The translations under genes were made by a program, and so were the position numbers. A stretch of DNA of 23,487 bases from Oscillospiraceae bacterium (lineage in GTDB: Bacteria > Bacillota > Clostridia > Oscillospirales > Acutalibacteraceae): contig WQRM01000005.1 in the NCBI GenBank assembly GCA_009786735.1, positions 1 to 23,487 of the forward strand. The letters are read 5' to 3'. The notes beneath the pieces were generated by a model. That model did no database searches, was not told where the DNA came from, and saw only the letters and a program-made list of their open reading frames with translations. Shown piece after piece: positions 4,399 to 18,217 of this stretch. Positions within the stretch are counted from its first letter, which is position 1. Each line of letters opens with the position of its first letter.

Positions 4399-4546
4399 GG
4401 TTTGTTTGGCAAGTTGATGTAGCGCACAGGCGGGCTGTGGCGCGCGCAACGGTCTGCGGAATGCTGCTCGGTTCCCCGCCTGACATGGTTGGCAGTGCTG
4501 TGCCGCACAGAACCTGCACACTACAGCAACCCGCCAAACAAAAAAT
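4399..4546 (-). ncRNA. ffs: Signal recognition particle RNA, small bacterial type (4.5S-like)
   Basis: RNA scaffold of the signal recognition particle, which binds Ffh and targets membrane and secreted proteins. On the minus strand the conserved domain IV is clear: ATGTCAGG, then a GGAA tetraloop closed by CGG/CCG, then AGCAGCATT (about 4456-4484). The ends pair as one long hairpin: GTTTGGC (from about 4541) with GCCAAAC (about 4404-4410), and GTTG..GTAG with CTAC..CAAC just inside. The length of about 145 nt and the lack of an Alu domain indicate the small type. It starts directly behind the rpsR stop codon with no clear promoter of its own, so it may be processed from the ribosomal-protein transcript. 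A strong terminator follows. The exact ends are estimated. Confidence 0.85.
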
Positions 4547-5784: not shown

Positions 5785-6834
5785 TTATGGCAGGGTGATG
5801 CGTAATCCCTGCGCTTGCACCGTGCGGGTGTCGTCTTGATTCCAACTCGCGTGATAAACAATGATGGTGTTGTCGTCCGTGAAGCTGAACTGATGTTGCC
5901 AACTCCACGGTTCTCCAGGCCAAGGAACAGCCGCCACAAATGTTTGCGCTTGCACATTGAAAATCAGCAGTTCATGGTTGGATGAGAGCGCCGCAAAAAA
6001 CATCGCGCTGGGCGACAGTTGTGTTTCGCCATGCCAACCGCCTTGGATGTACGCTTGTGGTATGTTGCCCAACAAATTATCGCTTGCTTGAACGCGCACA
6101 TTGTTGCTGCCCAAGCCCGCTATCGTAGCCCTATATAAATGAAGCTGTGGACCTGTGCCACTATATTCATTGGCAGTAGAAATAAAGTAGTGCGCGCCAT
6201 CGCTTTCGCCCCAATAGAGCCGCCAGCCTACATGTTCGGGTAGATATGCGGTCATTTCCAAGCGGTCAAGGTCAAAGATGCCCGTCACCGCTGTGACGGT
6301 GTGATGCTGCCAGCCAAGCAAAAAATAACGCTCATCCATTACACGAATCACCAACGGCTGTGACCACAGATGTTGCTCATACGGGCTGTACGAACCTTCA
6401 AACAAAATTTGCTCTGTGCGCGTGGCATTGTCACGCACCCAAAGGCTTGACGGTTGAAATTCGCCCGGCGCACGCCAAAACAGCGTGCGGTTGCCCATCG
6501 CAACTTCTGGCCAGCCGCGCGCAACCCATTGGCGATTTTCTATGCTTGCACGAAATTCATCAAACTCTTGCGTGTGCAAGTTAATCTCCTGCCACGAAAC
6601 GCCATTCATGCGTCCCTGCGGAAATGGTCGCGTGGTCGTTTCTGCCACGCTCGTGGTAACCTCTTCCTCGTCGGCACAATACGCACAGTAAAGCGCATCT
6701 ACATCGAGCCAAGGGGTACGGCACACGCGGCATTCGTAACCATACACTACCGTTGGCAGGGGAATGTCCACCACCGCCGCCGAGCCGCAGCCCGCCAGCA
6801 CCAGCAGAACAAGCAATAGAGCAAGCAATTTCAT
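5785..6834 (-). CDS. Lipoprotein 1 of a three-member family, with an N-terminal four-cysteine motif
   Basis: Predicted surface lipoprotein of 349 aa and unknown function. The signal peptide ends in lipobox LAGC with lipidated C16. Residues 31-53 contain C-x2-C-x11-C-x2-C (C35, C38, C50, C53), which resembles a small zinc ribbon and is odd on an exported protein. A Thr/Glu linker (about 56-70) leads to a Trp-rich beta-type ectodomain ending in RITLP. From residue 78 onward it is clearly related to the lipoprotein at 8578 (VSWQEINL versus FSWEEVDL; LWVRDNATRTEQILFEG versus LYLRNDATGEETLIAEG; matching C-termini). The ATG at 6834 has GGAGG 8 nt upstream and a consensus promoter with an adjoining palindrome. 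It is transcribed divergently from the permease gene. The ectodomain may be a propeller-like fold, but that is a guess. Confidence 0.85.
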   Translation of the reverse strand: MKLLALLLVLLVLAGCGSAAVVDIPLPTVVYGYECRVCRTPWLDVDALYCAYCADEEEVTTSVAETTTRPFPQGRMNGVSWQEINLHTQEFDEFRASIENRQWVARGWPEVAMGNRTLFWRAPGEFQPSSLWVRDNATRTEQILFEGSYSPYEQHLWSQPLVIRVMDERYFLLGWQHHTVTAVTGIFDLDRLEMTAYLPEHVGWRLYWGESDGAHYFISTANEYSGTGPQLHLYRATIAGLGSNNVRVQASDNLLGNIPQAYIQGGWHGETQLSPSAMFFAALSSNHELLIFNVQAQTFVAAVPWPGEPWSWQHQFSFTDDNTIIVYHASWNQDDTRTVQAQGLRITLP

Positions 6835-6855: not shown

Positions 6856-6884
6856 ATTATACCACGCCTGCCCGCAAATGTCCA
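6856..6884 (-). promoter_or_regulatory. Promoter of lipoprotein 1
   Basis: On the minus strand, TGGACA (6879-6884) and TATAAT (6856-6861) are 17 bp apart. Apart from a few spacer bases it is the same promoter as at 8529-8557. Confidence 0.8.
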
Positions 6885-6900
6885 GTTACAATGTTGTAAC
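6885..6900. promoter_or_regulatory. Palindromic operator between lipoprotein 1 and the permease
   Basis: GTTACAATGTTGTAAC has 7-bp inverted arms around a 2-bp centre. It abuts the -35 box of lipoprotein 1 and ends 17 bp before the -35 box of the divergent permease. It lies in a 32-bp block (6876-6907) that recurs identically at 8506-8537. A regulator-binding site is likely; the regulator is not identifiable here. Confidence 0.6.
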
Positions 6901-6917
6901 CTTTTGCAAAATTGTGC

Positions 6918-6946
6918 TGGACAAGTCCCGAACAATGTGCTATAAT
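6918..6946 (+). promoter_or_regulatory. Promoter of the APC permease gene
   Basis: TGGACA (6918-6923) and TATAAT (6941-6946) are 17 bp apart, about 38 bp before the chosen start codon. Confidence 0.8.
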
Positions 6947-6983
6947 ATGGAGAAACTATAGACATGAAAGGTATTTTTCTCTG

Positions 6984-8450
6984 ATGGAAAACAAGCTCAA
7001 ACGCAAATTCGGGCTGCTGATGGCCATGTGCATGGTGGTGGGCACAATCATCGGCAGCGGCATCTTCTTCCGCAACGAAGAAATCGTTGCCTACGCAGGC
7101 GGCCGCATGTGGATCGGCATCGCGGCATGGGCAATCGGCGGGTTCATCACCCTGGCTTTCGCATACGTGCTGGGCGTGCTGTCCACTCGCCACGAAAAAG
7201 TGGGCGGTCTGCTGGACTACTCCGACGTGCTCGTGGGCGAAAAATTCGGCTACATGTTCGGCTGGTTCATGGCCACGTTCTTCTATCCGTCCATGACGGG
7301 CATCCTTGCCTGGATATCAGCACGCTTCACCGTGGAGCTGTTCGGCTGGCACACCACACGTGGTGTTAACCAATTCTTCAGCGGCGAGACCTTCGCCATC
7401 GCGCTGGTTTATCTGGTCGCGATTTACGTCATCAACACCCTTAGCCCAAAAATCAGCGAAAAAATTCAGATTTCCGGCACGTTCATCAAGATTATCCCGC
7501 TCATCGGCATGGGCATCGTCGGCTTAATTGCCGGGCTGGCCAACGGCGTGACCCTCGAAAACCTCAGCTATGTGGTGGCAGAAACACCGGTGCGTGGCGT
7601 GATGAACATTCAAATTGGCTATTATCCCGCAGGCAGTGCATTTTTGTCTGCGCTCATCGCCACGGTGTTCGCCTATGTTGGCTTTGACTGCGTGATGAAC
7701 CTCAACAGCGAAATCAAGAATGCCAAACGCAACTTGCCCATTGCACTCACCGGCGGACTGTTGATTATCACTGCGATTTATGTGCTGTACTTCGTTGGCA
7801 TTTTCGGCGCGGCCTACACCGAAACCCTCGCAAGCGGCGGCACGCGCACGGCCTTCACCAACATCTTCACCGAAACCGGCGGCACCATCCTGTTTGTGTT
7901 CATCGTGATTTCCTGCTTGGGCACGCTCAATGGCTTAACCGTGGCCGGGCAGCGCGCGTTCTACGCCATTGCAGCGCGCAGACGCGGACCGAAACCCGAA
8001 ATTTTCGGTCAAGTGGATGCCGCAACGAACATGCCGAACAACTCCGCAGCACTCAACCTGCTGCTGATTGCCGTGTGGATGTTCATCAACGGCGCACAAC
8101 AAGCTGGTTGGTTTAGCTACTTGAGCTTCCTGTTGCCCGAGAGCGGTAACATTGAAGTATTCCGCTTCAATATTGCGGCACTGATTCCTATCACGTTCAA
8201 TGCGTTTTTCATCCCCATGTTTATCATGGTAATGGTGAAGCAAAAAGACTTGGGTATCTTCAACCGCTTCATCGCACCGGGCATCGCCACCGCAGGTGCA
8301 ATCTTCCTTATCTACGCTGTTATTCAGCGCGAAGAATGGGTTGTTGCGTACTATCTCGCGCTGTTCGCCGTTGTGATGTGCGGTGGCTGGCTGCTGCACA
8401 AGCGCAAAGAAGCGAAACAAGTGGCAGATGTCGCAGAATCGCCAGAATAA
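6984..8450 (+). CDS. APC superfamily amino acid permease
   Basis: Predicted inner-membrane amino acid transporter or exchanger of 488 aa with about 12 hydrophobic segments. The first helix carries the APC signature VVGTIIGSGIF, the unwound substrate-binding helix. A loop reading FDCVMNLNSEIKNAKRNLP, after the sixth helix, matches the conserved cytoplasmic 'E-x-K-N-x-x-R-x-x-P' region of APC carriers. The ATG at 6984 starts the conserved MENKLKRKFGLL N-terminus; the longer in-frame extension overlaps the promoter. AAAGG lies about 12 nt upstream, a slightly long spacing. It diverges from lipoprotein 1 across the shared palindrome, and its terminator is followed by the second copy of that regulatory block. 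The substrate cannot be read from sequence; a LAT/SteT-like exchanger is one option. Confidence 0.88.
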   Translation: MENKLKRKFGLLMAMCMVVGTIIGSGIFFRNEEIVAYAGGRMWIGIAAWAIGGFITLAFAYVLGVLSTRHEKVGGLLDYSDVLVGEKFGYMFGWFMATFFYPSMTGILAWISARFTVELFGWHTTRGVNQFFSGETFAIALVYLVAIYVINTLSPKISEKIQISGTFIKIIPLIGMGIVGLIAGLANGVTLENLSYVVAETPVRGVMNIQIGYYPAGSAFLSALIATVFAYVGFDCVMNLNSEIKNAKRNLPIALTGGLLIITAIYVLYFVGIFGAAYTETLASGGTRTAFTNIFTETGGTILFVFIVISCLGTLNGLTVAGQRAFYAIAARRRGPKPEIFGQVDAATNMPNNSAALNLLLIAVWMFINGAQQAGWFSYLSFLLPESGNIEVFRFNIAALIPITFNAFFIPMFIMVMVKQKDLGIFNRFIAPGIATAGAIFLIYAVIQREEWVVAYYLALFAVVMCGGWLLHKRKEAKQVADVAESPE

Positions 8451-8468
8451 CATCAACACAATACTTTC

Positions 8469-8502
8469 GCGGCGGGGCTTCGGTCTCGTCGCTTGTTTAT
8501 TT
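8469..8502 (+). terminator. Rho-independent terminator of the permease gene
   Basis: A 10-bp stem with three G-U pairs (8469-8478 with 8483-8492) is capped by a TTCG tetraloop and followed by TTGTTTATTT, 18 bp after the stop codon. Confidence 0.7.
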
Positions 8503-8512
8503 GGCGCAAAAG

Positions 8513-8528
8513 GTTACAACATTGTAAC
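8513..8528. promoter_or_regulatory. Palindromic operator upstream of lipoproteins 2 and 3
   Basis: GTTACAACATTGTAAC, in the same position relative to the promoter as the site at 6885-6900: its last base directly precedes the -35 box. The surrounding 32 bp (8506-8537) match that site base for base. Confidence 0.62.
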
Positions 8529-8557
8529 TGGACATTTACGCACACGCGTGGTATAAT
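8529..8557 (+). promoter_or_regulatory. Promoter of the lipoprotein 2-3-rnc transcription unit
   Basis: TGGACA (8529-8534) and TATAAT (8552-8557) are 17 bp apart, 20 bp before the start codon. No terminator is visible downstream until after 14734, so this may be the main promoter for seven genes. Confidence 0.8.
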
Positions 8558-8577
8558 AGGGAAAAGGGGGATTTGCT

Positions 8578-9564
8578 ATGAAATTGCTTGCTGTACTACT
8601 TATTCTGCTGGTGCTGGCGGGCTGCGGCTCGGCGGTGGTGGTGGATGATGACTACACCACCGAAACCACCACGGAGGTATACACGACGGCTGAAGAGGAA
8701 ACGACGACTTTACCTGAAGTTGTCGTGCGGGAGTTTTCTTGGGAGGAAGTTGATCTCACCAGTGCACAAGGTGCGCAATTGCACGCTTGGTTGCTGGACA
8801 ACACAACGTGGGATCCAGAGCCAACACCCTTACCAGAGTTTGACTTGCCGGGCATGTCAGTGCTTACCCGCTTTGATTTATATTTACGCAACGATGCAAC
8901 GGGCGAGGAAACGCTGATTGCCGAGGGCATGCACTGGGAAGGCTTTGAAATTGGTCGATTAGTACGGCAAGTGTTTGAACAACGCTTTGTTTGGCATACA
9001 TATGACACTGGACATCGGCCTGCCGGTGCAATTTTCGATACGCAACGCATGGTGAACATGCCCTTGCGCTTTCCCGAGGGGACAACCAGCGTAACCTACG
9101 CGGGCGAAATTAACGGAGTGCATTACTTTATCAATACGCATTGTCGCATGGATGGTTTTATCGGAAAAATGCATGTATTTGCACTGGATTTGCGCGAGCA
9201 TGATTTGCATACAGCGACAGAAATTTATGTCAGCAATAATTTGCTGGCGAGCGTTCCGCAGCGTTATGAAACCGAGCATATACTCGCATCGCTTTCGCCA
9301 TGTGGCAGGTTTTACGCAATGTATGGCTTTGAACTTGACCCGTATTGGCAGAGCAGTCGTGCGCTATTTGTTTTCGATTTAGCAAATGGCCAACTGCTTG
9401 GCGAAATCCCTGTGGAAAATTTGCCACAAGATACGTTTCGCATGATTTTTCAAGATGAACACACATTGGTGCTTTACTGTATGCAGTGGTGGAGTGAAGA
9501 TAACTTTCTGACACCACCTGCCTACGAATTGCACCCTATCGCGTTGCAGATTAACTTGCCATAA
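8578..9564 (+). CDS. Lipoprotein 2, paralogue of lipoprotein 1
   Basis: Predicted surface lipoprotein of 328 aa. Signal peptide with lipobox LAGC and C16, then an acidic Asp/Thr/Glu linker (about residues 22-46, with YTTETTTE), then an ectodomain that aligns by eye along its length with lipoprotein 1, including the C-terminal INLP. Unlike lipoprotein 1 it lacks the four-cysteine insertion between lipobox and linker. The ATG at 8578 follows a GGGGG ribosome site by 7 nt. Function is unknown; the FDL/FDT blade-like strands suggest a repeated beta structure. It is followed after 12 bp by lipoprotein 3. Confidence 0.85.
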   Translation: MKLLAVLLILLVLAGCGSAVVVDDDYTTETTTEVYTTAEEETTTLPEVVVREFSWEEVDLTSAQGAQLHAWLLDNTTWDPEPTPLPEFDLPGMSVLTRFDLYLRNDATGEETLIAEGMHWEGFEIGRLVRQVFEQRFVWHTYDTGHRPAGAIFDTQRMVNMPLRFPEGTTSVTYAGEINGVHYFINTHCRMDGFIGKMHVFALDLREHDLHTATEIYVSNNLLASVPQRYETEHILASLSPCGRFYAMYGFELDPYWQSSRALFVFDLANGQLLGEIPVENLPQDTFRMIFQDEHTLVLYCMQWWSEDNFLTPPAYELHPIALQINLP

Positions 9565-9576
9565 GGAGGATTTGCT

Positions 9577-11124
9577 ATGAAATTGCTTGCTTTGTTACTT
9601 ATTCTGCTGGTGCTGGCGGGCTGCGGCTCGGCGGCAGTGGTGGATGATGATGACTACACCACCGAAACCACCACGGAGGTTGCCACTACGACTGAAGAGG
9701 CCACAGAAGCACCCATTGTGCTCACGCGCGTTGGTGCTGTGATGCCGCCATTGCAGGGCGGGCCAATGTTGTATACATTTCCATCGTCGCGGTCATGGGG
9801 GCACACATACTGCGAAAAATATGGCAACCCAATTCCGCTGTTTCATATCGGATTGGTCAATGAAATAGGGCGCGTGGTCACCCAACCGCGCTACACCGCA
9901 ACGCAATACCTGCACAATGCACAAGGACGTGTGATTGGCTTGCTGGCTTATCGCGATGCAACAGTTACGCATTACACACTGCAGGGCGCTGCCACGCAGT
10001 TGCCGTTTCAAGCTCAGGCGATACGTCCCATGCAGGACGGTCGCCATTGGATTGTGCAGCGCTATGGTCGCTTAGATGGTTTTGACTGGAACGACGGCGC
10101 ATATCAGGGCTTGTTTGATTGGCAAACGCGACAATTTATTATTCCGCCAACCGAAGGATTGACCTTAAATGCGCACGGCACTATGCTGCTTGGTACGCAA
10201 CGCACAGCCCGGTCGTTCGACAGCCCGCTGGTTCGCGCGTTTGTGCGCGACGCTGATGGCAATGAACGCGAACTCCCTGAAGGTTGGCGTGCGCAGCGTT
10301 ATTTCCCCGAAACGAGCTGGTTTGAAATTGTGACGGGCGAGCGTTTTTCAACCGAAATGTTTATCGTTGACCGCGAATTTAACCGCGTACCCGAATTGCT
10401 CACACGATGGCACATTGACAGACCCTTTGAAGGGCGAAACCACATGATTATACGTAGCCGCAGCGATCACAGCACTTCAACTTGGGCTGACCGCGAGGGC
10501 AATATTTCGCCGCTTCGCTATGGCAATATTCGCCGCACGGGGCAGATGTATTTTGTGCGCGACGACTGGAACGCCCAAACGGTATCGATTTACGACGACC
10601 AGCTCAACCGCCTGCACAACGGCCAAGCGGCCATGCTGTGGGATGTGTTTGACCCCGGCAGTAATTACCCACACTTTTTGGCCGCACTTAACGAACAAGG
10701 CCAAGTGCAACGCATGTGGGGCACAAGCACCAGTCAACCCATAAACCTCAACGGCTTTGTCGGGTATTTTAGAACATCGCAGCACAGCGGTGCATTAGCG
10801 CGCAGAAACAACCGCTGGTATGAAATTATTCCGCATGATTTTATCAATTCGGTCGCAGGTGAATTGATAGCCAGTTCAGGCAACGTGACCCGCAATAGCG
10901 TGAGGCTTTGGTTTGGGTATTCGATGGAACTTGGTTATCGAACCCTGCGCACGATTACTGTAGACTGGAGCGGCAATGTGATTGACTGTCCGCCAGCTCT
11001 ATCGCGAACGACGGGCATCCGCAGTGCTGGCGAGCAAGGCCCGCACTACTGGTGGGTGGAGCGCGACGGACAACGCGGCTTCGTGAATGAGCGAGGACAA
11101 TGGCTATTTATATATGGGCAATGA
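9577..11124 (+). CDS. Lipoprotein 3, same signal cassette with a WG-repeat-like ectodomain
   Basis: Predicted surface lipoprotein of 515 aa. Its first 35 or so codons are almost identical at DNA level to those of lipoprotein 2 (shared lipobox region and a 29-bp identical stretch in the Thr/Glu linker). The ectodomain is different and longer. It contains spaced units such as GLVNEIGRVVTQPRY, GLFDWQTRQFIIPP and, at the C-terminus, RGFVNERGQWLF, which resemble degenerate WG (KWG) beta-propeller repeats. The ATG at 9577 has AAGGAGG at good spacing and no separate promoter. The stop codon overlaps the ribosome site of rnc. Function unknown; WG-repeat proteins are often cell-surface binding modules. 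Confidence 0.83.
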   Translation: MKLLALLLILLVLAGCGSAAVVDDDDYTTETTTEVATTTEEATEAPIVLTRVGAVMPPLQGGPMLYTFPSSRSWGHTYCEKYGNPIPLFHIGLVNEIGRVVTQPRYTATQYLHNAQGRVIGLLAYRDATVTHYTLQGAATQLPFQAQAIRPMQDGRHWIVQRYGRLDGFDWNDGAYQGLFDWQTRQFIIPPTEGLTLNAHGTMLLGTQRTARSFDSPLVRAFVRDADGNERELPEGWRAQRYFPETSWFEIVTGERFSTEMFIVDREFNRVPELLTRWHIDRPFEGRNHMIIRSRSDHSTSTWADREGNISPLRYGNIRRTGQMYFVRDDWNAQTVSIYDDQLNRLHNGQAAMLWDVFDPGSNYPHFLAALNEQGQVQRMWGTSTSQPINLNGFVGYFRTSQHSGALARRNNRWYEIIPHDFINSVAGELIASSGNVTRNSVRLWFGYSMELGYRTLRTITVDWSGNVIDCPPALSRTTGIRSAGEQGPHYWWVERDGQRGFVNERGQWLFIYGQ

Positions 11125-11134
11125 GGAGCATGCT

Positions 11135-11803
11135 ATGACACTTGACCAACTGCAACACAACATCGGCCACACCTTCCGCCAGCCCGAGCTGCTTGAGCGC
11201 GCGCTGACGCACTCGAGCTATGCCAACGAGCGCAAGCTGGCGCACGGCAGCAACGAACGCCTGGAGTTTTTGGGCGACTCGGTGCTGGGTTTCATCACGG
11301 CGGAGTGGCTGCATGCCAGCCATCCCGACAAAACCGAAGGTGAGCTCACCAAGATGCGCGCCGCCGCCGTGTGCGAGCCCGCGCTGTTCGGCTATGCGCA
11401 AGAAATCGGGCTGGGCGGCGCGCTGCGGCTTGGTCGCGGCGAGGCTGCAACCGGCGGCGCGAATCGTCCCAGCATGGTTGCCGACGCCTTCGAGGCCGTG
11501 CTGGCGGCGATGTTCCTCGACGGCGGCATCGAGCCCTGCAAGGTGTTCGTGCATCGCTTTTTGCAGCAGGGCAAGTTTGCGATGGCCGACAGCAAAACCG
11601 AGCTGCAGCAAATCGTGCAGCAAAACCCGGCGGAGTCCGTGGAGTATGTGCTCGTTGGCGAGCAAGGCCCCGACCACGAGAAAATCTTCGTGGTGGAGGT
11701 GCGGTTGCACTCCAACGTGCTGGGGGTGGGGCGTGGGCGCAGCAAAAAGCTCGCCGAGCAAGCCGCCGCCGCGCAGGCGCTGAAGCTGATGGGGATGGGA
11801 TAA
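11135..11803 (+). CDS. rnc: Ribonuclease III
   Basis: Double-strand-specific endoribonuclease that processes rRNA precursors and SRP RNA and degrades duplex RNA in the cytoplasm. The 222-aa product has the catalytic domain (NERLEFLGDSVL at 40-51 and ADAFEAVLAAMFLDGG at 116-131, giving acidic residues E44, D48, D117, E120). A dsRNA-binding domain starts with SKTELQQ (153) and ends with the basic GRGRSKKLAEQAAAAQAL. The ATG at 11135 was chosen because GAGGAG sits 7 nt upstream; a longer frame would overlap lipoprotein 3. It is embedded in an accessory operon rather than next to smc/ftsY, its frequent clostridial neighbours, so its expression may depend on the lipoprotein promoter. Confidence 0.96.
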   Translation: MTLDQLQHNIGHTFRQPELLERALTHSSYANERKLAHGSNERLEFLGDSVLGFITAEWLHASHPDKTEGELTKMRAAAVCEPALFGYAQEIGLGGALRLGRGEAATGGANRPSMVADAFEAVLAAMFLDGGIEPCKVFVHRFLQQGKFAMADSKTELQQIVQQNPAESVEYVLVGEQGPDHEKIFVVEVRLHSNVLGVGRGRSKKLAEQAAAAQALKLMGMG

Positions 11804-16298: not shown

Positions 16299-16897
16299 GC
16301 ACTCGGGTGCGCGAGCGTGAAATCCCAGACCCAAAATGGCTATTAAAGGTTTTGTTGCTTTGGTCGGCGTGGATACTGGCGGATCGCATTGCAACTTGGG
16401 TTGATAGGCTTGGTTGGATGTGGGGAGAAATCCCGTTTCTCTTCTTTTGGATGGGCTTGATTGTGGCAGTGGTTGTTCTGAAAAAGTGGAAAGTATTATG
16501 GCCAGGCGTGATGTTCCCCTTTTTCTGGTTCGTTGCGTGGCTCTCGGTGGATTTATTTCATCTTCTTCGCCTGTATGGTGTTGGCAGCTTTATCGTGAGG
16601 CATCATTTTAACATCGTATTGCAAGTGGCACTTTACGGTCTCATGCTTGCGTTGATTGCTCGCCACCAAGGCGAAAAACGGTGGTGGCGTTGGTCTTATC
16701 CAGCGGTGCTATTTCTCATTCGTTTCCCGGGATGGCGAGATGTTGTGCATGACTGGCCATCGCTCTGGATTAGAGTGTTTGCGGATTTTCGTTTTATCTC
16801 GTTGTACGTTTTAGCTGTGCTGCTGCCTGTTTTCCTGCTTTGGTGCAAGCACCGCAAACTTACACCACCCACACGCCCCCGTACCTCACCAGGATAG
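16295..16897 (+). CDS. Integral membrane protein of unknown function, 3' end inside tRNA-Arg
   Basis: The 200-aa product is rich in Trp and Phe, with about five or six hydrophobic helices from residue 17 to 190 and charged loops (KKWK, RHQGEKRWWR). I do not recognise a family. The start ATG at 16295 overlaps the stop of the preceding gene. The frame runs past the last helix into a Pro/Thr/Arg tail (TPPTRPRTSPG), and its TAG stop (16895-16897) lies within the D-arm of the tRNA-Arg gene, a 23-bp overlap. This tail looks like translated tRNA flank rather than conserved protein, so the original 3' end may have been lost. Base composition is somewhat more AT-rich than the preceding gene. Confidence 0.72.
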   Translation: MSTRVREREIPDPKWLLKVLLLWSAWILADRIATWVDRLGWMWGEIPFLFFWMGLIVAVVVLKKWKVLWPGVMFPFFWFVAWLSVDLFHLLRLYGVGSFIVRHHFNIVLQVALYGLMLALIARHQGEKRWWRWSYPAVLFLIRFPGWRDVVHDWPSLWIRVFADFRFISLYVLAVLLPVFLLWCKHRKLTPPTRPRTSPG

Positions 16898-16951
16898 AGG
16901 GTCCGCCTCCTAAGCGGAATGTAGTGCGTTCGAGTCGCGCCGGGGGTGCCA
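16875..16951 (+). tRNA. tRNA-Arg, anticodon CCU
   Basis: A 77-nt cloverleaf with encoded CCA. Acceptor GCCCCCG pairs with CGGGGGT; D stem CCTC/GAGG; anticodon stem TCCGC/GCGGA with loop CTCCTAA (anticodon CCT, reading AGG); T stem GTGCG/CGCGC with loop TTCGAGT. No separate promoter is evident, so it may be transcribed with the gene it overlaps. Confidence 0.93.
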
Positions 16952-17179: not shown

Positions 17180-17268
17180 GGAAGCGTATCGAAGTGGTCA
17201 TAACGAGCCGCACTCGAAATGCGGTTGGGGGCAACCCCACGAGAGTTCGAATCTCTCCGCTTCCGCCA
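17180..17268 (+). tRNA. tRNA-Ser, anticodon CGA
   Basis: An 89-nt class II tRNA with encoded CCA. Acceptor GGAAGCG/CGCTTCC; anticodon stem CCGCA/TGCGG with loop CTCGAAA (anticodon CGA, reading UCG); a long variable arm with stem GGGG/CCCC typical of serine tRNAs; T loop TTCGAAT; discriminator G. It has its own promoter and a terminator directly downstream. Confidence 0.95.
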
Positions 17269-17309: not shown

Positions 17310-17567
17310 TTATTTCGCCCAACGTTTGAGCGTGGCAAACACGTTGCGCATGTTTTCGCGTGCTTCGTCGTCATCTTTGCAGCCGTCGCGCCAAAATTCT
17401 AGGTTTGACTCAACAAACTCATCGAATGTGGGTTTCCACGCGAAGTCACCCGCTTGATAGCAATAGCAGCAGTAGTCTGCGCTGGGTTTGCCGTCGGCTT
17501 CGCGACCGAAGTCCTTCTTCTTTTTCATGGGCATGTAACAGCTTTGGCAGTGTCGTGGAGTTTTCAT
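17310..17567 (-). CDS. Small zinc-ribbon protein
   Basis: An 85-aa protein resembling the 'putative zinc ribbon' family (zinc_ribbon_2 type). It has CQSCYMPM (C7, C10) and a second pair in ADYCCYCYQ about 25 residues later, enough to bind one zinc, followed by a helical acidic tail. The start at 17567 is chosen because AGGAGG lies 9 nt upstream; it overlaps the stop of the HTH-VOC gene by 4 bp (ATGA), so translation is coupled. No enzymatic role is known to me. The pairing suggests that it acts in whatever response the regulator controls. Confidence 0.85.
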   Translation of the reverse strand: MKTPRHCQSCYMPMKKKKDFGREADGKPSADYCCYCYQAGDFAWKPTFDEFVESNLEFWRDGCKDDDEARENMRNVFATLKRWAK

Positions 17568-18166
17568 GGCTCGTATCCTCCTGTGATTTCGATTTCGTTG
17601 CCATCGGGGTCGTACACATTGAAATACCAGTAGTCTGCGCAATTTTGCGAGCGGCGGATATCGCTCATTTTGCCGATACAAAGACTTTGCACGCGTTGGT
17701 GCTCACAGCGTAGGCATTCGATCCAAAAGTTCAGCACGAACTTGGAGTCGCCGCTGCCGGCGGTGTCGTGCCCCGGCAAGTTGCTTTCGTTCATGATGGA
17801 GATGTTTTTATTGTCGAAGTGAAACTCCGCAAACACGCCCGGAGCGATTGCCGAAACGCGCATGGACAAAAACTTCTCATAAAAATCAACAGATTGCCGA
17901 AATTTTTTCGCCACCAGATAAATGCTGCCAAGGTGCAGCACATTTTTGTTTGGTCGGCAAAGCGCCTTTTCTTTTTCAAGCAGTAGCTCGTCGGTCGTCA
18001 TGCCAAATAGGCGGCTGATTGCCACGATTTTGTCCAGTTCCGGCAGCGCCTGCCCAAGCTCCCAGCGCGAAACCGACTGCCGCGTCACGCCCAGCTTGTC
18101 CGCCAGTGCAACTTGCGACAAGCCGTTTTTCATCCGAACCGCTTGAATGTTTTCGCCAACCTGCAT
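17564..18166 (-). CDS. HTH (XRE) and VOC/glyoxalase-fold fusion regulator
   Basis: A 200-aa protein. Residues about 5-62 are an XRE-type helix-turn-helix (MKNGLSQVALADKLGVTRQS, then SVSRWELGQALPELDKIVAIS). Residues about 78-197 are a VOC (glyoxalase/bleomycin-resistance) domain: LHLGSIYLVAKKFRQSVDFYEKFL at the start and YFNVYDPDGNEIEI at the end. In such fusions the VOC domain is likely a ligand or drug sensor; the glutamates in the EFHF and EIEI strands could hold metal or ligand. The ATG at 18166 has AGGGGGT 7 nt upstream; the longer frame runs into the promoter. A perfect 14-bp palindrome adjoins the -35 box and may be its own binding site. Confidence 0.87.
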   Translation of the reverse strand: MQVGENIQAVRMKNGLSQVALADKLGVTRQSVSRWELGQALPELDKIVAISRLFGMTTDELLLEKEKALCRPNKNVLHLGSIYLVAKKFRQSVDFYEKFLSMRVSAIAPGVFAEFHFDNKNISIMNESNLPGHDTAGSGDSKFVLNFWIECLRCEHQRVQSLCIGKMSDIRRSQNCADYWYFNVYDPDGNEIEITGGYEP

Positions 18167-18188
18167 AAACGCACCCCCTGTGTGTACA

Positions 18189-18217
18189 AGTATAGCAGAA
18201 AAGCGCGCGCGTGTCAA
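18189..18217 (-). promoter_or_regulatory. Consensus promoter of the HTH-VOC/zinc-ribbon operon
   Basis: On the minus strand, TTGACA (18212-18217) and TATACT (18189-18194) are 17 bp apart, 23 bp before the start codon. Confidence 0.85.

Follow-up and report, generated by a model that had tools for sequence, protein, structure and literature searches.

The DNA analysed here, referred to as the window, is a stretch of 23,487 nucleotides (positions 1 to 23,487, forward strand) of contig WQRM01000005.1 from the Oscillospiraceae bacterium assembly GCA_009786735.1. It carries three lipoprotein genes, an amino acid permease gene between the first two of them, and a gene for RNase III (Table 1). Upstream of lipoproteins 1 and 2 stand two short blocks, at 6876–6907 on the minus strand and 8506–8537 on the plus strand, which agree in 32 of 32 bases and both hold the palindromic dyad GTTACAACATTGTAAC, followed by TGGACA, 17 bases and TATAAT. 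The original prediction, made from the letters of the window, had described this very arrangement, namely identical 32-bp blocks before two lipoproteins and, in each, a 16-bp dyad that ends at a TGGACA −35 box with a TATAAT 17 bp on, and it is borne out letter for letter in both copies. Likewise, one dyad had been placed between divergent promoters of lipoprotein 1 and the permease, both of which are present, and the block is indeed free of any regulator gene. If up to three mismatches are allowed, the dyad occurs at these two places of the window only (four matches, two per palindrome), a number that none of 100 shuffled sequences reached (maximum two).

Table 1. Coordinates of genes, promoter elements and predicted operators around the two dyads of the window.
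Feature	Position	Strand	Remarks
Lipoprotein 1	5785..6834	-	349 aa; no Pfam match at E 0.01
-10 TATAAT, lipoprotein 1	6856..6861	-	17-bp spacer
-35 TGGACA, lipoprotein 1	6879..6884	-	abuts dyad 1
Dyad 1 GTTACAACATTGTAAC	6885..6900	-	predicted operator of the lipoprotein 1 promoter; one mismatch in G010
Permease promoter TGGACA-17-TATAAT	6918..6946	+	begins 17 bp past dyad 1
Amino acid permease (AA_permease_2)	6984..8450	+	Pfam
Terminator-like hairpin 3' of permease	8469..8492	+	-17.5 kcal/mol, z -2.76; conserved beside dyad 2 in G001 and G010
Dyad 2 GTTACAACATTGTAAC	8513..8528	+	predicted operator for lipoprotein 2; dyads at the orthologous loci of G001 and G010
-35 TGGACA, lipoprotein 2	8529..8534	+	abuts dyad 2
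-10 TATAAT, lipoprotein 2	8552..8557	+	17-bp spacer
Lipoprotein 2	8578..9564	+	328 aa; no Pfam match; distant paralogue of lipoprotein 1
Lipoprotein 3	9577..11124	+	515 aa; no Pfam match; 12 bases past lipoprotein 2; without a dyad of its own
RNase III	11135..11803	+	10 bases past lipoprotein 3; same gene order in G010 and G001

The identity of the two blocks is weak evidence when taken alone, because the 5′ coding DNA of the lipoproteins is nearly identical as well: over their first 66 coding bases, the three genes are 92% alike in pairwise comparison. In a gapless comparison of the flanks, the 22 bases after the blocks are 73% identical and the 60 bases before them 15%. Judged by these sequence comparisons, a cassette of promoter and signal peptide was probably duplicated within the window. 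The block might then be nothing but a copied strong promoter that serves no regulator, an explanation to which the similar coding starts lend some weight. As copying is possible inside the window, the question had to be decided by sites outside it.

The window's own assembly (G000; 1.59 Mb, 70.6% complete) contains six exact copies of the dyad, GTTACAANNTTGTAAC, and two genomes of the same genus contain 13 (G001) and six (G010), compared with a chance expectation of 0.003–0.004 per genome at the base composition of the window. We refer to these three genomes as the window clade. The other 11 genomes of the genus have no exact dyad and four family-level genomes have one each, which makes seven of 60 genomes overall, while a reversed control pattern finds no exact match in any of the 60. 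With up to two mismatches, G000 holds eight places for the dyad and five for the control, and thus the two additional degenerate places mean little by count. That the dyad would be met upstream of genes beyond the window holds in all three genomes, where it recurs genome-wide before promoters. Stop-to-stop frames of at least 100 codons span 17 of the 25 exact dyads; since some frames of this kind are antisense or extend the controlled gene at its 5′ end, the position of a dyad relative to coding regions was judged by the downstream start codon. This codon lies 41–164 bp from the dyad in 30 of 30 rows of the window clade (dyads with at most one mismatch), two of the 30 start codons, both at murA, having been miscalled by the script.

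Comparison of these 25 exact dyads over 80 offsets revealed a rigid register between dyad and promoter. At 23 bp past the dyad, at least four of the six bases of TATAAT are matched in 24 of 25 cases, against 0–9 at the other 79 offsets, and at least five of six in 21 of 25, against at most three elsewhere. Two of the 24 matches are murA sites that enter through a chance TATTTT, their true TATAAT lying 44 bp from the dyad; a genuine −10 element stands at exactly 23 bp in 22 of the 25 dyads once the two murA sites and locus L026 are taken out. Directly next to the dyad stands, in most cases, TTTACA, TTTACT, TGGACA or TGGACT. TTGACA serves as the −35 element at none of the 25 dyad sites, compared with 25 of 56 other promoters in the loci of these genomes (p 1.4e-5), a comparison for which the control promoters were picked at a match of at least four of six to TTGACA, which favours this hexamer among them. 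A TGn-extended −10 element is present in 21 of 22 dyad promoters and in 37 of 56 others (p 0.008), the two bases at the centre of the dyad are CA, read along transcription, in 17 of 25 cases, and an A-rich stretch lies upstream of the dyads. Dyad and promoter, searched as one composite with at most three mismatches, occur seven times in G000, 11 times in G001 and 10 times in G010 (28 in total), and three times in the other 11 genomes of the genus (once each in G002, G004 and G008); the corresponding control pattern has no match in the 14 genomes of the genus.

These outside sites bear directly on the idea of a copied promoter. The same composite precedes genes unrelated to the lipoproteins, such as those for VanW, a nucleotidyltransferase and zinc-ribbon proteins, and in other genomes it stands in unrelated flanks with the symmetry of the dyad kept. 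Both observations argue against mere copying of a strong promoter, and we regard that explanation as highly improbable.

Close to half of the genes behind the dyads code for lipoproteins. Lipoproteins, called by the lipobox rule, account for 14 of the 30 rows of the window clade, against 6 of 118 background genes taken from the regulator loci of the dyad genomes (p 1.9e-7). Another 11 of the 30 encode exported or membrane-anchored proteins by a crude N-terminal rule, which wrongly scored murA among them, and 5 of the 30 fall into neither class. By eye, dyad promoters also precede the genes for MurA and for the zinc-ribbon proteins just mentioned. The small nucleotidyltransferase gene with a dyad promoter is found at L005:780-1076 in G000 (with one mismatch) and at L028:2652-2957 in G001, and looks by eye like the first half of an MntA/HepT-like pair.

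The dyads also persist at orthologous loci, as expected from the original prediction: G010 keeps both window sites around the permease, with one mismatch each, and G001 keeps the second. A row of dyad, lipoprotein gene or genes and RNase III gene is common to G000, G010 and, by eye, G001. VanW orthologues have a dyad promoter in all four dyad genomes in which VanW was matched (G001, G010 and two gut relatives introduced below, G060 and G061), whereas none of six other genomes read (G003, G006, G009, G011, G012 and G016) has one there; G000 and the gut relatives G062 and G063 have no VanW match, and the comparison leaves out G021 and five weaker matches. We give it without a p-value because the genomes were picked by their dyads. 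In G009 and G012 VanW directly follows the upstream gene, and in G001 a dyad promoter lies between the two. At murA of G001 and G010, a single dyad is placed 21 bp, or two helical turns, further upstream. Directly past this dyad (L034 and L040) stands CAATTAATTG, a second palindrome, in G001 and CAGTTAATTG in G010. Upstream of murA in G007 (L091), a direct repeat that matches the WalR box perfectly, TGTAAC-N5-TGTAAC, occupies about the place of the dyad of G001 and G010.

A search for exact copies of the composite in 84,980 species returned 19 stretches, nine in Emb289P1bin98 and four in Lab288P1bin84, both of which we infer to come from termite gut by their names and a paper on termite-gut genomes (PMC7024585), and six in five other metagenome-assembled genomes of Clostridia or Oscillospiraceae: RGIG2202 (G060), SIG588 (G061), RGIG7216 (G062), RGIG3183 (G063) and RGIG7067 (G064). 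The hosts of four of these five are given as goat, sheep or buffalo, from the gut, and for SIG588 none is given. G060–G063 have regulons of their own, with 12–19 dyad matches per strand at up to one mismatch against 1–4 for controls; G064, with four matches against four and zero for controls, is doubtful. Together with the window clade, G060–G063 make up the seven dyad genomes. In 32 loci of these four relatives, a spacing of exactly 21 bp separates 11 of 12 closely placed pairs of dyads, and the −10 element peaks again at 23 bp past the dyad (15 matches, against 0–4 at the other offsets from 10 to 39). Among their targets are lipoproteins, VanW, a PASTA Ser/Thr kinase, a 3D/G5-linked protein and a sugar transferase; for 5 of the 32 ruminant-side rows, no gene begins within 200 bp. 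G002, which has no exact dyad, carries one composite site before a PASTA kinase gene (Pfam), as does G060. The promoter of VanW in SIG588 (L082, near 6394) contains an extended palindrome, GGTGTAAAGTTACAACATTGTAACTTTACACC.

A second arrangement appears in the gut relatives, where the dyad follows TATAMT by 1–15 bp at three M23/G5 peptidase genes and one SH3_3/dockerin gene. The latter, which has a C39 match under its cut-off, possesses a consensus TTGACA at its promoter, and at two of these M23 genes a second, imperfect dyad precedes TATAMT.

Altogether, we consider it likely that one dimeric transcription factor binds the dyad and that the window holds two members of a cell-envelope regulon, with activation at both. 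In class II activation at CRP, LuxR or lambda cI sites, a dyad lies beside a weak −35 element in fixed register, with its centre near −43. The class II position of CRP is −41.5, and the dyad here lies about 2 bp further upstream. By analogy, a dimer on the dyad (centre near −43.5) would contact RNA polymerase and offset the poor −35 element, and the bound dimer would drive lipoprotein 1 on one side and, on the other, lipoproteins 2 and 3 and perhaps RNase III too. Where the dyad lies over or just past the core promoter, as at the four hydrolase-type genes of the gut relatives, the same protein might repress; it is this placement 1–15 bp after the −10 element that we read as repression.

The regulon could also exist with the opposite sign at the window, such that the protein blocks RNA polymerase at both sites until an envelope signal releases it. 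The dyad does touch the −35 element, and the dyads over or just past core promoters in the gut relatives suggest that the protein is able to repress. Activation is favoured, however, by the rigid register, in which the −10 element stands at 23 bp in 22 of 25 dyads, by shifts of exactly 21 bp at murA and between tandem dyads, and by the −35 elements, which are never TTGACA at the dyad, whereas the SH3-domain gene with its dyad past the −10 element has TTGACA. Repression at the window sites thus seems rather unlikely to us.

Several points weigh against activation by a single dimeric factor. Each functional step is read from the anatomy of the sites. A weak −35 element beside an operator fits a repressor, too, and the contrast in TTGACA usage was drawn with controls chosen in its favour. 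The exact dyad of L026 has no −10 element in place, murA of G000 is without a dyad, and near-matches lie inside rsmB in G062 (Pfam) and G063 (by eye), probably by chance. Many targets are paralogous, so that the 25 sites and 30 rows lack independence. Finally, searches among LuxR, TetR, Crp, OmpR-type and XRE proteins did not pin down the binder.

Within the window, the original prediction had one regulator controlling the permease and all three lipoproteins. For the lipoproteins this stands in part: lipoproteins 1 and 2 have dyads, while lipoprotein 3 has none itself and could be reached on a shared transcript. Dyad 2 may drive a single operon of lipoproteins 2 and 3 that perhaps extends to RNase III. 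Control of the permease fares worse. The dyad is separated from the permease −35 element by 17 bp, compared with 0 or 21 bp elsewhere, and in G001 the promoter TGGACA-17-TATAAT has been retained before the orthologous permease with no dyad beside it. G010 does have one, again at 17 bp, which leaves some room for control of the permease by the dyad; probably, the permease promoter is independent of dyad 1. A fold prediction for lipoprotein 2 from a three-row alignment was unusable (mean pLDDT 49). Elsewhere in the window, a reading frame at 17564–18217 (minus strand) pairs an HTH_3 domain with a weak glyoxalase-type domain, an unusual combination, and Rfam places a small SRP RNA at 4421–4519 (minus strand) and tRNA genes at 16875–16948 and 17180–17265 (both plus strand).

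Which protein might bind can be approached from the half-sites. The recurring unit consists of two inverted TGTAAC half-sites at a distance of 10 bp: in 178 kb around the sites of the window clade there are 26 such pairs and at most one each of the other arrangements, direct repeats included, in loci that were picked for dyads and without selection against direct repeats. TGTAAC-N5-TGTAAC is not enriched in the 14 genomes of the genus (seven places against five of the controls). On both counts, we rejected a WalR-type direct repeat as the working unit.

One candidate, regulator A, is a WalR/MtrA-like response regulator of the OmpR family that would bind TGTAAC half-sites as an inverted pair. 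The arms of the dyad correspond to the half-sites TGTWAH of WalR/VicR (YycF) and GTAACC of MtrA (PMC4168254, PMC12323332), and these regulators, according to these sources, govern wall hydrolases and exported proteins by both activation and repression. Wall-related genes are among the targets here, too (PASTA kinase, M23/G5, 3D, VanW and MurA). The wal operon of C. difficile, according to PMC4168254, PMC12323332 and PMC9210968, includes a lipoprotein with a predicted beta-propeller-type domain. Regulator A is found in G000, G001, G010, G060, G061 and G063, it is followed in G060 by a kinase and an HtrA-like protease, and its closest solved chains are RegX3 and MtrA, with better scores than for the second candidate, regulator B. 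On the other hand, the known WalR and MtrA sites are direct repeats with N5, not enriched here, in contrast to an inverted pair with N4 that often recurs in tandem at 21 bp; relatives without dyads have A with an identical recognition helix, and A was not found in G062, one of the seven dyad genomes. We therefore name it tentatively, as possible rather than probable. Downstream of regulator A in G001, G010 and G000 (L164, L167 and L169) there is no kinase gene, the neighbours being a BrnT toxin, an MFS transporter and an opposite-strand gene, respectively; this absence rests on reading the neighbours, as the kinase pattern search was insensitive and had no match in L172 and L180 despite a long open reading frame beside A.

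The inverted geometry resembles that of GraR, BceR and VirR, and regulator B, the other shared OmpR-family protein, or a lost BceR/GraR-like regulator might act on a GraR-like operator. According to PMC3128592, the GraR box is AAGTGACA-N4-TGTCATTT upstream of the −35 element, BceR and VirR have inverted repeats, the general form is nnACA-N4-TGTnn and the targets belong to the envelope; the Aps/Psd box AnnTTACnAnnnnGTnAG (PMC10858260) is similar. Here, GTTACA-N4-TGTAAC abuts the −35 element. The half-sites of GraR are TGACA/TGTCA in that source, unlike the TTACA/TGTAA that the 25 exact dyads have by search definition, and a GTGACA-like composite was found once, in G004 only. The targets, too, are mostly lipoproteins and not dlt, mprF or a transporter. 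B is found in G001, G010 and G060–G063 and was not found in the incomplete G000, its recognition helix is the same in relatives without dyads, and its closest solved chains are likewise RegX3 and MtrA. No BceR-like regulator with a BceAB-type transporter was found among the OmpR-type proteins of G001, G010 and G060. We hold this second proposal to be quite improbable. The BceRSAB module was rejected as owner of the regulon, none lying beside the OmpR-type regulators of G001 (three), G010 (two) and G060 (two); G061 has one FtsX-type transporter module beside a regulator. The kinases beside B, all with HAMP, HisKA and HATPase domains, measure 376 aa in G001 (L165:3940-5070), 350 aa in G010 (L168:3904-4956), 486 aa in G060 and 490 aa in G061. 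Since the helices of A and B are the same with and without dyads, co-occurrence cannot decide the matter.

An XRE-type (HTH_3) protein might instead sit on single or tandem dyads, as lambda repressor does beside a promoter that it activates. The seven dyad genomes give 14, 30, 29, 29, 27, 18 and 44 HTH_3 matches, four genomes without dyads give 5, 16, 9 and 11, and the tandem dyads at 21-bp spacing would suit such a protein. Among the part of these matches that was read, however, none is recognisably common to the dyad genomes, and in a viral collection neither the tandem nor the composite pattern has an exact match, so that we think an XRE-type binder unlikely and have rejected a phage origin of the motif. 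Other families were set aside by their distribution. Neither the Crp nor the LuxR type runs through all dyad genomes: regulators with a GerE domain (LuxR/NarL-type, 7-2-7 site) are missing from G000, G001, G010 and G062, and Crp-type HTH proteins of the CRP/FNR group are not found over cut-off in G000, G001 and G062. G060 has no TetR protein. PrfA, NrdR, ArgR, BlaI and GlnR/TnrA were put aside because their sites differ in spacing or half-site.

In summary, we found no description of this motif or of its regulon in the open-access literature searched. A more specific scenario, to which we would give only low credence, is that a WalR/MtrA-type regulator has been rewired to inverted TGTAAC pairs in promoters of fixed register, activating a large family of diverging surface lipoproteins and VanW and repressing wall hydrolases, with no adjoining kinase gene in the window clade. 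If the regulator is truly a counterpart of WalR/MtrA, this would show that wall regulators are able to switch from direct to inverted operators, a point relevant to the evolution of such regulons. Its rigid architecture makes the composite simple to search for in further genomes. It would provide a DNA handle on surface control in uncultured gut Oscillospiraceae and related Clostridia, in which lipoproteins, VanW, the PASTA kinase and hydrolases may be switched together.

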